From assembly GCA_029560585.1 (NCBI GenBank), contig JAKQKQ010000149.1, positions 1-64,000 of the forward strand: DNA of 64,000 nucleotides. The letters run 5' to 3'. How positions within the stretch are numbered: position 1 is the stretch's first letter; every line of letters starts with the position of its first letter. The stretch comes from Verrucomicrobiota bacterium. GTDB taxonomy: Bacteria; Verrucomicrobiota; Verrucomicrobiia; JADLBR01. Below the pieces are notes generated by a model, which was given only the letters and a program-made list of their open reading frames with translations, made no database searches and was not told where the DNA came from. Made by a program: the position numbers and the translations under genes. Positions 1-58,398 of the stretch are shown one piece after another.

Positions 1-142
1 GCCACCGATCCGCGAAACACACTCTGCAACCGCGAAAAATCCCAGTCTTTGCCAGACCTTTCCCAATAAATGGCTCTCATGGCGCGGTTTTCCCAGAGCC
101 CGGAATTTCACAGCCAGCAAGGCTGTGAAATATCCGGGCTAA
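1..142 (+). repeat. R1 element, copy A (cut by window edge)
   Basis: This is the right-hand part of a 230-bp dispersed element whose full copies lie at 24739-24968 (opposite orientation) and 51959-52188. It differs from the equivalent part of the 51959 copy at only about three of 141 positions. The right end is an imperfect palindrome with arms around TTTCACAGCC and GGCTGTGAAA, ending in CTAA at 139-142. The left half lies outside the window. The stop codon of the neighbouring minus-strand gene is inside the last bases of the element. An in-frame reading across it is not taken as a gene because the open frame does not outlast the repeat in a conserved way. Confidence 0.9.
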
Positions 143-5636: not shown

Positions 5637-6063
5637 AGAATAGCAGGCCGTCGGACTTTTGGAAGCCCGGCGGCCCCCAGAAACTGGACTGATTTTCGGG
5701 GAGCGGGTCGGCCAGATTCCGACGAATTCCTGCCAGAAACTTCGGGCGCTGTTCGCGGGCGCGGCTCATGCCCCGACCCAGGATCTGGGCCGGGAGGGTC
5801 TTGGACTGCGGTGGCAGAGTCCGGCAACCGCCGGACTCTGCCACCGCAGTCCAAAACGGCACCGCCCTCAGAAGTTTCACCATGAATAATCCGGCGCGTG
5901 GACGTTTCTGGCTAGTGCCGCCCCCTCGCGTCGGGGGCGGCGCTGACCCGAAACGTCAAATCGCGGAACATGCGGGCCGCCTGTGTGAGGCGGCTGGGCA
6001 ATCCCGAGAATAGGAAAACCTGCAGGCCGGACGGCCGTGGTCGAGGATACCGGTGGGGCGCCT
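5637..6063. repeat. Gene-free repeat island (R3 copy, TIR-like hairpin end, palindromes)
   Basis: The island begins with TAGCAGGCCGTCGGACTTTT, related to the hairpin at 51564 and to the terminal repeats of the element at 34928. About 5731-5820 is an R3 module, reverse complement of the copies at 21752 and 37400. A perfect 25-bp inverted repeat follows (separate entry). Near 5969-5992 is GCCGCCTGTGTGAGGCGGC, related to palindromes at 35017 and 51815. No credible gene was seen. Confidence 0.7.
5801..5854. repeat. Perfect 25-bp inverted repeat with 4-nt loop
   Basis: The arms 5801-5825 and 5830-5854 are exactly complementary around the loop AACC. The arm core is GGTGGCAGAGTCCGGC. There is no T-run on either side, so it is not a classical terminator, though it could stop the minus-strand transcript arriving from 6064. 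The outer part of each arm, ending ACCGCAGTCCAA, is the edge of the R3 module, so the structure looks like two R3 edges meeting head to head. Confidence 0.85.
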
Positions 6064-21488: not shown

Positions 21489-21865
21489 CCCCACCGCCAT
21501 CCGGGGGGCCGCCAGCCCGCCTGAACCCGTTGGGCCATGGCATTGGCGTAGCAGACGAGCCACCGGAACTCGAGCGGGAAGGCCGACGTCGCCCTTCGCC
21601 GAGCGCATCAACAGGTCCGCGATGCAGCGGCCCTTCACCCCCTCCGGCCTCCGTGCGTCTGTGGTGAAAAGAACTTTCACGGAACGAGAACGCCAGCAGC
21701 CGCGTCGTGTCGCAATCGTCGCAGCGGATGCGCGCGAAACCGTAGGACAGGTCACCGCAGTCCAAAACCCTTCCGGCCCGGATCTTGGGTTGGGGCACGA
21801 GCCGCGCACGCGAACAGCGCCCGAAGTTCCTGGCCGGGAAACGGCGGCCCGCATTCCTGAGTTCT
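21489..21865 (+). repeat. R4 plus R3 repeat modules; gene-free stretch 21452-22011
   Basis: About 21489-21572 matches the R4 module at 19164. About 21752-21840 is an R3 module (CACCGCAGTCCAAAACCC, then GGCACGAGCCGCG, CGCCCGAAGTT) matching 5731-5820 in reverse and 37400-37481. About 21842-21866 matches 19330-19360. Between the modules I see no gene. The rest, to 22011, shows only GTGTGGCTGTTTTCCGGTTAG-like filler. Confidence 0.65.
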
Positions 21866-24738: not shown

Positions 24739-24968
24739 TTAGCCCGGATATTTCACAGCCTTGCGGGCTGTGAAATTCCGGGCTCTGGGAAAACCGCGCC
24801 ATGAAAGCCATTTATTGGGAAAGGTCAGGCAAAGACTGGGTTTTTTCGCGGTTGCGGAGTGTGTTTCGCGGACCGGTGGCCCCAGACCCGTCAAAGTCGC
24901 GTTCTTCGGAGCGCGGTTTTCCTTTGAGCCTGCATATTTCACGCGGAAGCGTGAAATATGCAGGTTAG
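24739..24968 (-). repeat. R1 element, copy B (complete, 230 bp)
   Basis: Bounded by TTAG at 24739 and TTAG at 24965-24968. Read on the minus strand: a hairpin of 18-bp arms (CCTGCATATTTCACGC/GCGTGAAATATGCAGG), a subterminal 12-mer GGAAAACCGCGC, a unique core, its inverse GCGCGGTTTTCC and the second hairpin (TTTCACAGCC.../...GGCTGTGAAA). The core is close to the copies at 1 and 51959. The stop of the lrp-like gene lies in the terminal bases. Confidence 0.93.
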
Positions 24969-25444
24969 GGCGACACCTTCAGTTTCTCGTCCGGGGTCTC
25001 CGCCTGCATGAGGACGCCCTGCTCCTTGTAGGTCTTGAGCATGAAGTGCGTCGCGGTGGAGAGGACGCCCTCGAGCGTGGCGAGTTTCTCCGAGACGAAC
25101 GTGGCCACCTGCCGCAACGTCTTGCCCTCCACGATCAGCAGCAGGTCGTAGGAGCCGCTCATCAGGAAACACGACGTCACCTCGGAAAATTTCGCGATCC
25201 GCGCCGCCAGCCGGTTGAAGCCCCCGCCGCGCTCGGGCGCGAGTTTGACCTCGATGACGCCCTTGACCAATTCGGAGACCGCCCGCTCGTCGTCGATGAT
25301 CGCCCTGTAGCCGAGGATGATCTTGTCCTCCTCGAACTTACGGATGCGGGCGATGACCTCCTCCTCCGTCAGGTTCAGCATCTTGCCGATGGTGGCGGGT
25401 TTCGCGTACGCGTTCTCTTCGAGCATGCGGAGGATCGGGTCCAT
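24965..25444 (-). CDS. Lrp/AsnC-family regulator
   Basis: From ATG 25444 the product is 159 residues. The helix-turn-helix is at about 15-50 (ATIGKMLNLTEEEVIARIRKFEEDKIILGYRAIID) and the RAM/AsnC ligand-binding domain at about 65-145 (VIEVKLAP; SCFLMSGSYDLLLIVEGKTL; THFMLKTYKEQG). Such proteins form octamers responding to amino acids. Upstream frame to 25630 is unsupported. Its TAA stop is part of repeat R1 copy B. Confidence 0.88.
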   Translation of the reverse strand: MDPILRMLEENAYAKPATIGKMLNLTEEEVIARIRKFEEDKIILGYRAIIDDERAVSELVKGVIEVKLAPERGGGFNRLAARIAKFSEVTSCFLMSGSYDLLLIVEGKTLRQVATFVSEKLATLEGVLSTATHFMLKTYKEQGVLMQAETPDEKLKVSP

Positions 25445-25527
25445 GGGGAAAGTAAAGACTCCCCTGGGGTCCAAATCAACGCCCAACAAAGAAGTTGGTT
25501 GTTGGATGTTGGCCGTTGGGCTTTTGG

Positions 25528-26373
25528 TCAGGTCGTTTGGGGTCGGATCTCGGCCGCATCGAATTCCTCGACCAGGTCCAGGATCACGTCGGCCATGTGG
25601 GGCTCGGTGCCGATCGCGGAGGTGTACCACAGGCGCCGGTCGCCGAGGTGATGCGGGCCCCGCGCCAGCGAGTCCTCATTTAATGGGGGGGAGGCGGGGG
25701 CGCGCAGCCCTAGTGCCGAGGGGATGTCCTCGAGGCAGTGCTGTCCGTTGCCGATGAAGAACGGGACGGCGACCACGTCGCGGTGCGCCGTGACTTCGCG
25801 CCAGCGTCCGATCAGGGGCTCCTGGTCGAGGAAGGCGGCCCGCACCTCGCCGAACAGTCCGAGCGCCCCCACCGCCGCCACCTGGCGGCGGATGGCGACC
25901 GCGGAGTTCACATCCCGGCCCGTCCCGTGGCCCAGGATGAGCAGGCAGGCGTCGGCCGGATCCTGGTCGGCGCCGAGCGCCGCCAGCGCCCGATGCTGCA
26001 ACACCGCCGTCATCGAGTGGTGTGAGCCCACCGGCCTGCAGTAGTACAGCCGGCGCCCGTCGCGGCAGGTGACTTGCCCTTCGAGCCCAAACTCGCGGGG
26101 AAAGACAGTGCGCGTGAAGTAGCCCTCGCTGATGAAATTCGGGACGATGTAGACCTCGGGGGACCGCACCGCGCCGAGCACCTCCCGGGGCCTCGGCCCC
26201 TCCTTCCAGAAGGCCGCGGCCACTTCCGCGAACGGCCCGCGGGCGCGAAGCGCGCGAACGAGCTCGTGCGTCGGTCGGCTGGAGCCCGCGCTCTTGCTCG
26301 AGCCGTGCGCCGCCAAAACGAGAGCGGCGCCGGGCCAGGCCCGGCGCCGCTCCGGCTGTAAGTCTGATCTCAC
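25528..26373 (-). CDS. CbiX/SirB-like sirohydrochlorin chelatase family protein
   Basis: 281 residues from GTG 26373, with two chelatase half-domains. The first begins LVLAAHGSSKSAGSSRPTHEL with the metal-site His and continues EVAAAFWKEGPRP; the second has CLLILGHGTGRDVN and EVRAAFLDQEPL. A duplicated CbiX arrangement would insert Co, Ni or Fe into sirohydrochlorin, but no tetrapyrrole genes are adjacent, so the substrate is open. The N-terminal ERRRAWPGAAL is encoded by a perfect 27-nt palindrome. It lies 55 nt after fba on the same strand. Confidence 0.75.
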   Translation of the reverse strand: MRSDLQPERRRAWPGAALVLAAHGSSKSAGSSRPTHELVRALRARGPFAEVAAAFWKEGPRPREVLGAVRSPEVYIVPNFISEGYFTRTVFPREFGLEGQVTCRDGRRLYYCRPVGSHHSMTAVLQHRALAALGADQDPADACLLILGHGTGRDVNSAVAIRRQVAAVGALGLFGEVRAAFLDQEPLIGRWREVTAHRDVVAVPFFIGNGQHCLEDIPSALGLRAPASPPLNEDSLARGPHHLGDRRLWYTSAIGTEPHMADVILDLVEEFDAAEIRPQTT

Positions 26374-33357: not shown

Positions 33358-33468
33358 ATCGATTTCTATCGGGTCGTTCGAATCATGTCTCCATCGGCCC
33401 GGCCACGAGCACAGGTGGCCAATATCGCCTCTCAGATGAATCCGAACGGGATCCAACGCCCCCATTCG

Positions 33469-33558
33469 GGAGTGCCGCCGGCCCCGGCGTCCGCGATTCA
33501 CCAGTCGCGCAACGCCCGGGCCAACCCGGCCCGCGAGGCCGCGGGCCCTCCCCAGGAT
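33469..33558 (+). repeat. R6 repeat module in a gene-free stretch (33358-33628)
   Basis: About 90 bp from GGAGTGCCGCCGGCCCCGGC through GACCCGGCC-type sequence to GGGCCCTCCCCAGG. It aligns with 58269-58361 and, in reverse, with part of 35172-35262, sharing the core GCCGGCCCCGGCGTCCGCG. No gene was seen between the Smr gene and the following methyltransferase-like gene. Confidence 0.7.
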
Positions 33559-33628
33559 GCTCGCATGGCGCATCCATCGAAAGGCCAGGACACGCCCACT
33601 GTCGATGTTGCTTGTCGGGCACTCCGCA

Positions 33629-34929: not shown

Positions 34930-35293
34930 CAGCCTGTTGAAAAACCCCCTGATGGCGTGCGTGGCCGGATTCCGCCGGGAGGGCCCGCGGCCTGAGCGTG
35001 TCTCAAAACCTCTGAGCCGAGCCGCCTGGCACAGGCGGCCTACAAATTTTGTAGGGCATCTCTGCGAGATGCCGTGCATTGTCGCGCGCCGCACACCATT
35101 GGAAGTCCCCTCTATCATCAGATGGGTATTGATTGTTGGGTGTTCCGTGTTGGGCGTTTGAGTTTTGAGACAGTCTCGCCTCGCGGGCCGCGAATGAGAG
35201 ATGCCTTTCGCTACCCGGTGGGACGCGGACGCCGGGGCCGGCGTCCCTCCCATACCCAACGCGGCTGTTGTGTGGGTTTTTCAACGGACTGCT
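34928..35293 (+). mobile_element. 366-bp MITE-like element with 20-bp terminal inverted repeats
   Basis: Left end AGCAGCCTGTTGAAAAACCC (34928-34947) and right end GGGTTTTTCAACGGACTGCT (35274-35293) are inverted repeats matching at 18 of 20 positions. No transposase is encoded. Inside are other repeats: palindromes at about 35017-35077, the phrase TTGATTGTTGGGTGTTCCGTG near 35129, and an inverted R6 module (about 35172-35262). The gap continues to 35380 with nothing recognised beyond ATCCGTGGTATCCGTGGTT. It may be a non-autonomous transposon or a nest of insertions. Confidence 0.65.
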
Positions 35294-37399: not shown

Positions 37400-37481
37400 T
37401 GCCACTTCAGTCCAAAACCTCCCCGGCCCGGATTCTGGGTCAGGGCACGAGCCGCGGCTGCGGACACCGCCTGAAGTTTCG
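37400..37481 (+). repeat. R3 repeat module, copy C
   Basis: CACTTCAGTCCAAAACCTCC through GGCACGAGCCGCGG to GCCTGAAGTTTCGGATCAG matches 21752-21840 and the reverse of 5731-5820. It fills most of the gap between the convergent dehydratase and sulfatase genes and ends within a few bases of the sulfatase stop. Confidence 0.7.
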
Positions 37482-41727: not shown

Positions 41728-41771
41728 CTAACCTGCATGGTTTACGCGGAAGCGTGAAATATGCAGACTAG
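41728..41771. repeat. Solo R1 left-hairpin, 44 bp
   Basis: CTAACCTGCATGGTTTACGC-GGAA-GCGTGAAATATGCAGACTAG in two arms: the left terminal hairpin of R1 without core or right half, bounded by CTAA (41728-41731) and CTAG (41768-41771). It shows that the hairpin alone can occupy a site. It lies in the 260-nt gap upstream of the GH32-like gene. Confidence 0.85.
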
Positions 41772-51620: not shown

Positions 51621-51677
51621 GTAGGAGCCTGCTTGCAGCCGATTCCGTGCGCGAATCGCGCGCAAGCGCGCTCCTGC
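51621..51677. repeat. R2 REP pair (GTAGGAGC family)
   Basis: GTAGGAGCCTGCTTGCAGCC faces ATCGCGCGCAAGCGCGCTCCT across a short spacer. It is the same unit as 55924-55973. The GTAGGAGC...GCTTGC form closely resembles the REP sequences of pseudomonads mobilised by REP-associated tyrosine transposases. Between here and 51958 are weaker palindromes (CCGGCAGCCGCCGG; GTCGCCTGTGTCAGGCGGC) and no gene. Confidence 0.75.
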
Positions 51678-51958
51678 GTCTCATCTTCACCTCCGGTGGT
51701 CCGGCAGCCGCCGGATGAGGTCTGGGTTCCAGATTGCGTGGGACTGGCGTCGGTCACGCCAGACATTCGCACGCGTTTGGCGTCTCGAAGAGACTCCCCA
51801 CAGGTCTTGTGGGTCGCCTGTGTCAGGCGGCAACGGGCGTCGAGTTTCCCCATGAATGTTGCGGCGCCCTCCGGCGCCGTCCGCGGGGGCGATCGACTCT
51901 CCAAGGATCGCGCCCGCCACCCGGCCAGGGGAAGGATCGCGATCTGGATGGCGCAGCA

Positions 51959-52188
51959 CTAGCCTGCATGTTTCACACTTCCGCGTGAAACATGCAGGCT
52001 CAAAGGAAAACCACGCTCCGAAAAACGCAATTTTGGAGGGTCTGGTGCCACCGATCCGCGAAACACACTCTGCAAGCGCGAAAAGTCCCAGTCTTTGCCA
52101 GACCTTTCCCAATAAATGGCTCTCATGGCGCGGTTTTCCCAGAGCCCGGAATTTCACAGCCCGCAAGGCTGTGAAATATCCGGGCTAG
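51959..52188 (+). repeat. R1 element, copy C (complete, 230 bp)
   Basis: Bounded by CTAG (51959-51962) and CTAG (52185-52188). Left hairpin 51961-52000, subterminal GGAAAACCACGC, core, inverse GCGCGGTTTTCC, right hairpin about 52143-52187. It is about 98% identical to copy A over 141 bp. Downstream, 52189-52390 holds the leader of the isomerase gene with an AAGGAG site. Confidence 0.93.
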
Positions 52189-55927: not shown

Positions 55928-55973
55928 GAGCCCGCTTGCCGGCGATCCAAATCGCGCGCAAGCGCGCTCCTAC
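55924..55973. repeat. R2 REP pair (GTAGGAGC family)
   Basis: Bounded by GTAG (55924-55927) and CTAC (55970-55973). GTAGGAGCCCGCTTGCCGGC faces CGCGCAAGCGCGCTCCTAC. It provides the stop codon of the UroD-like gene and separates it from the convergent DUF4886 gene. Confidence 0.85.
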
Positions 55974-56027
55974 GTCCGATGTTTTGGTCCGCCGCGAAGC
56001 CGTGAGAGATCTCCCGCGGATCAAACT

Positions 56028-58235: not shown

Positions 58236-58398
58236 GCCGACGTCTCACAGAGACGCCGTACAGTGGCATCCGTGGGAGGGACGCCGGCCCCGGCGTCCGC
58301 GACCCGCCAATCGGGCGGCGCCCGCGCTGACCCGGCCCGTGAGGCCGTGGGTCCCCCCCAGTGTTTTCGCGGGGCCCGAAGGGCGCGAGCCCTTCGCT
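58236..58398. repeat. Repeat island: palindrome, R6 module, hairpin
   Basis: 58236-58263 is a palindromic GACGTCTCACAGAGACGCCGT unit shared with 35051 and 63727. 58269-58361 is an R6 module like 33469. 58376-58398 is the hairpin GAAGGGCGCGAGCCCTTCGC, which reaches the stop codon of the following transporter gene. Confidence 0.7.

Follow-up and report, generated by a model that had tools for sequence, protein, structure and literature searches.

R1, a dispersed repeat with palindromic ends in a Verrucomicrobiota genome, is very probably an IS1380-type MITE

Several bacterial MITEs have been named, including RUP, NEMIS, Nezha and MITEAba12 (PMC3733652, PMC6382973). REP-like repeats are on record for the Verrucomicrobia, in Opitutus terrae (PMC3733652), and the IS1380 family of insertion sequences is the prokaryotic outgroup of piggyBac (PMC10813416). 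Here we analyzed a dispersed repeat, R1, in a 64 000-nt stretch of Verrucomicrobiota DNA (hereafter the window; C204:1–64000), which comes from an assembly of 7.06 Mb in 336 contigs with 96% completeness (G000). As both its ends and its target duplication match those of IS1380 elements, we consider R1 to be an IS1380-type non-autonomous MITE, mobilized in trans by a DDE transposase of the IS1380 family, with a probability of about 0.92.

The original prediction described R1 as a dispersed element of 230 bp. Comparison of 49 long copies confirmed that the repeat is real and corrected its extent: the precise unit is 222 bp, starting with CCCGGATATTTCAC and finishing with GTGAAATATGCAGG, and the four outermost base pairs at either end of the 230-bp repeat lie outside it and are duplicated target. 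R1 codes for no gene, and each of its ends consists of a TIR followed by its own inverse, i.e. a full palindrome. The first complete copy (24743–24964, forward strand) runs from R-end to L-end between two TTAG target-site duplications (24739–24742 and 24965–24968). It comprises an R-end palindrome (24743–24783, forward strand) with the IS1380 TIR CCCGGATATTTCAC as its outer arm, a subterminal 12-mer GGAAAACCGCGC (24788–24799, forward strand) that is also conserved in a same-genus genome (G001), the inverted 12-mer (24911–24922, reverse strand; GCGCGGTTTTCC on the forward strand), and an L-end palindrome (24929–24964, forward strand) whose outer arm is the TIR CCTGCATATTTCAC on the reverse strand. 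The second complete copy (51963–52184, reverse strand) is inverted with respect to the first and is flanked by CTAG at 51959–51962 and 52185–52188; with their flanks, the two copies form an inverted repeat (I1) with 90% identity over 241 nt. A third copy (1–138, reverse strand) adjoins the target-site sequence CTAA at 139–142, which includes the stop codon of an ORF on the reverse strand (139–777). It is indeed incomplete, as was claimed, yet it is cut by the start of contig C204 and not just by the window edge, since the window starts at base 1 of that contig. A solo L-type palindrome (41732–41767, within 41728–41771) has CTAA on its left and CTAG on its right. The two complete copies, the solo hairpin, both 12-mers and the YTAR outer flanks were thus found as originally placed, and the reported 98% identity between the copies at 1–142 and 51959–52188 over 141 bp was reproduced, with 3 differences.

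Conservation along the unit is uneven. The outer arms and subterminal 12-mers have an entropy of 0.13–0.22 bit per column, against 0.49 for the core and 0.82 for the tip of the R hairpin, the most variable part of R1, with 15 different tips among 48 copies. The hairpin stem remains paired despite this variation, and comparable tip variation was seen at hairpins of two other genomes (G092 and G633). The L-end and R-end termini differ from each other by a GG/GC asymmetry that is paralleled at the two ends of a complete IS1380. By hairpin comparison, the solo hairpins of G000 are mainly one-ended remains, and two R/L hybrid solo hairpins (L039 and L175) resemble deletions between R and L hairpins.

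The genome-wide search proposed in the original prediction returned well over 100 copies of R1 in G000, with precise rather than random ends. Searching with the 230-mer gave 220 first-look candidates, 40 of which were scored; nearly all of these were full-length, with 93–100% identity. The right-hairpin arm had 161 matches against 3 for its reversed control, and the left-hairpin arm 323 against 14, so that the matches are not due to chance. Several contigs begin or end within R1, which indicates that the assembly is broken by the element. No copies were returned from contigs of named genomes, a set from which the source genome itself is possibly absent.

We then considered whether the YTAR flanks belong to the element or to its target. 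Identical 4-bp flanks were present in 37 of the 49 long copies; CTAG/CTAG was the commonest pair, with TTAG/TTAG in 4 copies and CTAA/CTAA in 2. Rarer letters in the left and right flanks are correlated: Fisher's test gives P = 0.001 at position 1 of the tetranucleotide and P = 0.0003 at position 4. A T as the first base of the left flank occurs in 9 copies, and 5 of the 9 do not have it on the right, a mismatch we assume to reflect mutation after insertion or exchange between copies. The two flanks of each copy were also joined and matched against fetched DNA of G000. This yielded the empty sites that had been sought: four copies (L126, L155, L158 and L040) sit in other repeats of the genome, and where those repeats are uninterrupted the 4-bp target is present only once (CTAA, CCAG, CTGG, and CAAG/CGAG in place of CTAG). 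Identical, covarying flanks together with four empty sites therefore show that YTAR is a 4-bp target-site duplication and part of the target, not of R1. An orthologous empty site was sought in G001, where conserved flanks map to contig C8 and no element was found; the intergenic sequence there is too diverged for a base-exact site. The view that R1 is mobile, non-autonomous and recently active is supported by its precise ends and target-site duplications, by the four empty sites in paralogous repeats and by a nearest-neighbor identity of 97% among copies, in agreement with the recent movement first proposed.

The window contains further dispersed repeats. An intergenic palindromic repeat AATCGCGCGCAAGCGCGCTCCTACG, often following GTAGGAGCCTGCTTGCAGGCGAT, lies at 51654–51687 and 55950–55983, and the 4-nt loop of one such repeat is the exact insertion site of an R1 copy (L040). 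The GGCGGTTGCCGGACTCTGCCACCGCAGTCCAAAACCC family occurs at 5719–5857, 21753–21847 and 37403–37478, as well as at loci L113, L124 and L055, and one of its copies holds an R1 insertion (L158). A repeat of ~100 bp, GGGACGCCGGCCCCGGCGTCC, lies at 33468–33569, 35217–35252 and 58273–58375 and is common to other contigs; the flanks of R1 copy L155 match it as an empty site.

At its termini, R1 has the 14-bp TIRs of the IS1380 family of insertion sequences (CCCGGATATTTCAC and CCTGCATATTTCAC). Of 384 genomes of the class, 39 contain the terminus TARCCYGSATATTTCAC, against one reversed-control match. Most of these matches mark the ends of other short elements, whose cores are unrelated; next to the terminus, two genomes have a transposase of the IS1380 family. 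A complete IS1380 from a genome of the same class (L227/L231; L227 in G261) spans 1570 bp and reads CTAG, CCCGGATATTTCAC, transposase, ATGAAATATGCGGG, CTAG, with CCCGGATATTTCAC/CCCGCATATTTCAT as its TIRs. Its transposase matches NF033539 with 413.7 bits and PF13701 with 557.5 bits, and IS1380 copies in G246 and G100 have the same ends. Relatives of the L227-type transposase were located at 80 loci in named genomes; the ends of 52 of these were scanned by script, and many showed CCCGGATATTTCAY-type ends with 4-bp repeats. Methylobacter marinus A45 has five IS1380 copies, each bounded on both sides by CCCGGATATTTCAT and flanked by direct repeats (CTAC, TTAG, CTAG, CTAG and CTAA), and IS1380 loci with this or a closely similar TIR occur in Cycloclasticus, Methyloglobulus, Singulisphaera, Marinobacter, Variovorax and others. 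Past the 14-bp TIR, no homology between R1 and the IS1380 interior was noticed by eye.

R1 is thus short, multicopy and free of a transposase gene, with IS1380 TIRs and an IS1380-like duplication, as expected of a MITE. Judging from these shared termini, an IS1380 transposase is presumably the enzyme that moved R1. Its predicted recognition sites are the terminal 14 bp on both sides of R1 (R end, CCCGGATATTTCAC; L end, CCTGCATATTTCAC), and the excised R1 would be joined to a 4-bp staggered cut at YTAR, CTAG being the best target, leaving 4-bp direct repeats. Insertion at the stop codon of a gene would be harmless, because YTAR contains TAA/TAG and the stop would be rebuilt. At the first copy, the Lrp/AsnC-type gene (24965–25630, reverse strand) takes its TAA stop codon (24965–24967) from the duplicated TTAG.

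A partner insertion sequence in the same genome is usual, but not required, for a MITE. No IS1380 gene with R1 ends was found in G000, and searching it with the L227 protein gave no match. A PF13701 search returned one divergent IS1380-like gene near a contig end (L009, C4:4829–6019; 73 bits, 482-aa frame), which was rejected as the R1 partner as it is without CCCGGATATTTCAC ends. A locus at which 1.27 kb separates an R from an L hairpin (L063) was rejected as an autonomous copy, because it holds ordinary genes between two separate remnant hairpins. As the assembly consists of 336 contigs at 96% completeness, a multicopy insertion sequence could be missing from it. Broken IS1380 relics are present in pieces in G001, 75–79% identical to L227, one of them with the end CTAA-TCCGGACATTTCAT. 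We infer that the IS1380 partner has been lost from G000 or is unassembled in it.

The layout of R1 raises the question of whether it moves as a single strand instead, as an IS200/IS605-derived or REP/REPIN element whose hairpins and conserved tetranucleotide are recognized by a Y1/RAYT tyrosine transposase, the relationship that the original prediction had pointed to. Hairpins at both ends, intergenic dispersal, high copy number and the presence of RAYT-type genes in G000 all fit this idea. However, none of the six Y1/RAYT-type places in G000 has R1 hairpins or 12-mers within about 1.5 kb, and no transposase bordered by the same hairpins was found there. IS200/IS605 elements would show a fixed cleavage tetranucleotide without target duplication, and REPs a GTAG or CGTC tag beside the palindrome; the outer flanks of R1 are instead variable YTAR, differing from copy to copy, duplicated and covarying, and reduced to one 4-bp copy at empty sites. 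HUH transposition is not known to give a target-site duplication. Together with the match of the R1 ends to IS1380 TIRs, these results refute single-strand movement in the main, and we regard it as very improbable. A PF01797 search of three genomes, with the loci scanned for hairpins, yielded no RAYT partner for R1. In a quick scan, the six places (L068, L071, L073, L077, L080 and L082) showed no long near-perfect hairpins within about 1.5 kb.

R1 could also be a MITE belonging to a different DDE family that duplicates YTAR, such as the IS5 or IS701 groups. YTAR is used in papers on IS711 insertion sites (PMC2266754, PMC3163539), but R1 shares its 14-bp termini exactly with IS1380 elements that themselves bear the same YTAR duplication, leaving such an origin hardly plausible. 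Less remote, yet still unlikely, is that R1 is maintained as a hairpin useful to the host, either stabilizing mRNA ends or acting as a terminator between genes, with its spread being secondary. Many copies are indeed intergenic or have an end that coincides exactly with a neighboring stop codon, and the palindrome arms are far more conserved than the core. However, 29 of 49 copies overlap a stop codon, a proportion without clear enrichment over the YTAR sites of the window as a whole (26 of 59) and roughly that expected from the target sequence; for the same reason, specific targeting of stop codons was rejected. Moreover, no T-run follows the R1 hairpins, an Rfam search gave only chance miRNA matches, with no family reaching its gathering score, and conserved ends are equally expected of transposase sites.

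To place the palindromic ends of R1, we compared related elements in other genomes. Elements of G001 have R1 ends and a different core; the elements of G000 and G001 are about 67% identical, and their ends and 12-mers hardly differ. Stand-alone palindromes of 35–40 bp, each a pair of IS1380 TIRs directly abutting one another, occur in a genome of the same class (G045) and in two from other classes of the phylum (G533 and G633), with 4-bp direct repeats (TTAG, TTAA, CTAG, CTAA, ATAG and CTAT) on either side. Identical flanks were found in 9 of 12 compared palindromes, among them TTAG/TTAG, CTAA/CTAA, ATAG/ATAG and CTAT/CTAT, pairs that palindromic extension cannot explain; as these 12 were hand-picked, the shuffle test on their flanks is only indicative. 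The two-hairpin layout is found again in G045 with other loops, over about 215 bp and with one terminal hairpin of the GC type and the other of the GG type (C217:27937–28152 and C377:24510–24727, match coordinates only), and elements of about 140 bp in a complete genome (G092) have a hairpin at one end only. Many IS1380-ended short elements of about 130–190 bp without terminal hairpins, with cores unrelated across genera of the class, were also seen in G276, G108, G229, G023 and G379 (L177–L224).

The 35–40-bp palindromes may be very small mobile units and a source for R1-like composites, and the palindromic ends of R1 may have arisen from such stand-alone mini-elements. We further propose, tentatively and at less than even odds, that these palindromes are mobile alone, which would place them among the smallest DDE-mobilized elements, and that R1-like elements are two such units around a core, a DDE counterpart of REPINs evolved independently of RAYTs, with the hypervariable tips resulting from a hairpin form opened off-centre. 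Another reading is that the palindromes reflect an inverted TIR duplication whose retention is due to its terminating transcripts or assisting the transposase.

If R1 is an IS1380-type MITE, REP-like intergenic palindromes in a bacterial phylum can derive from an ordinary DDE transposon family and not from RAYTs, and the hairpin layout alone is therefore unfit to infer single-strand transposition. The 35–40-bp form offers a test of the minimum DNA that a DDE transposase needs for movement, and IS1380-type ends provide a ready marker for IS1380 MITEs across the Verrucomicrobiota. MITEs themselves are well known; no description of an IS1380 MITE with palindromic ends was found in the literature searched, which included few of the subscription journals. 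Like REPs, REPINs and BIMEs (PMC2817692, PMC3116915, PMC3733652), R1 has two inverse hairpins around a spacer and also occurs as solo hairpins; unlike REPs and REPINs with their RAYTs, it has no GTAG/CGTC tag and no linked RAYT, and it shows 4-bp target duplications and DDE-type IS1380 termini. With IS1380 insertion sequences (NF033539, PF13701), it shares identical 14-bp TIRs and the 4-bp YTAR duplication, but it is gene-less, measures 222 bp against about 1.57–1.76 kb, and has each TIR doubled to a palindrome. R1 resembles RUP, NEMIS, Nezha and MITEAba12 (PMC3733652, PMC6382973) in being short and non-coding, with TIRs, target duplication, high copy number and presumed in-trans mobilization, in its case by an IS1380 partner. 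It differs from them in that both of its ends are full palindromes and that related organisms have a 35–40-bp form made of two TIRs only.
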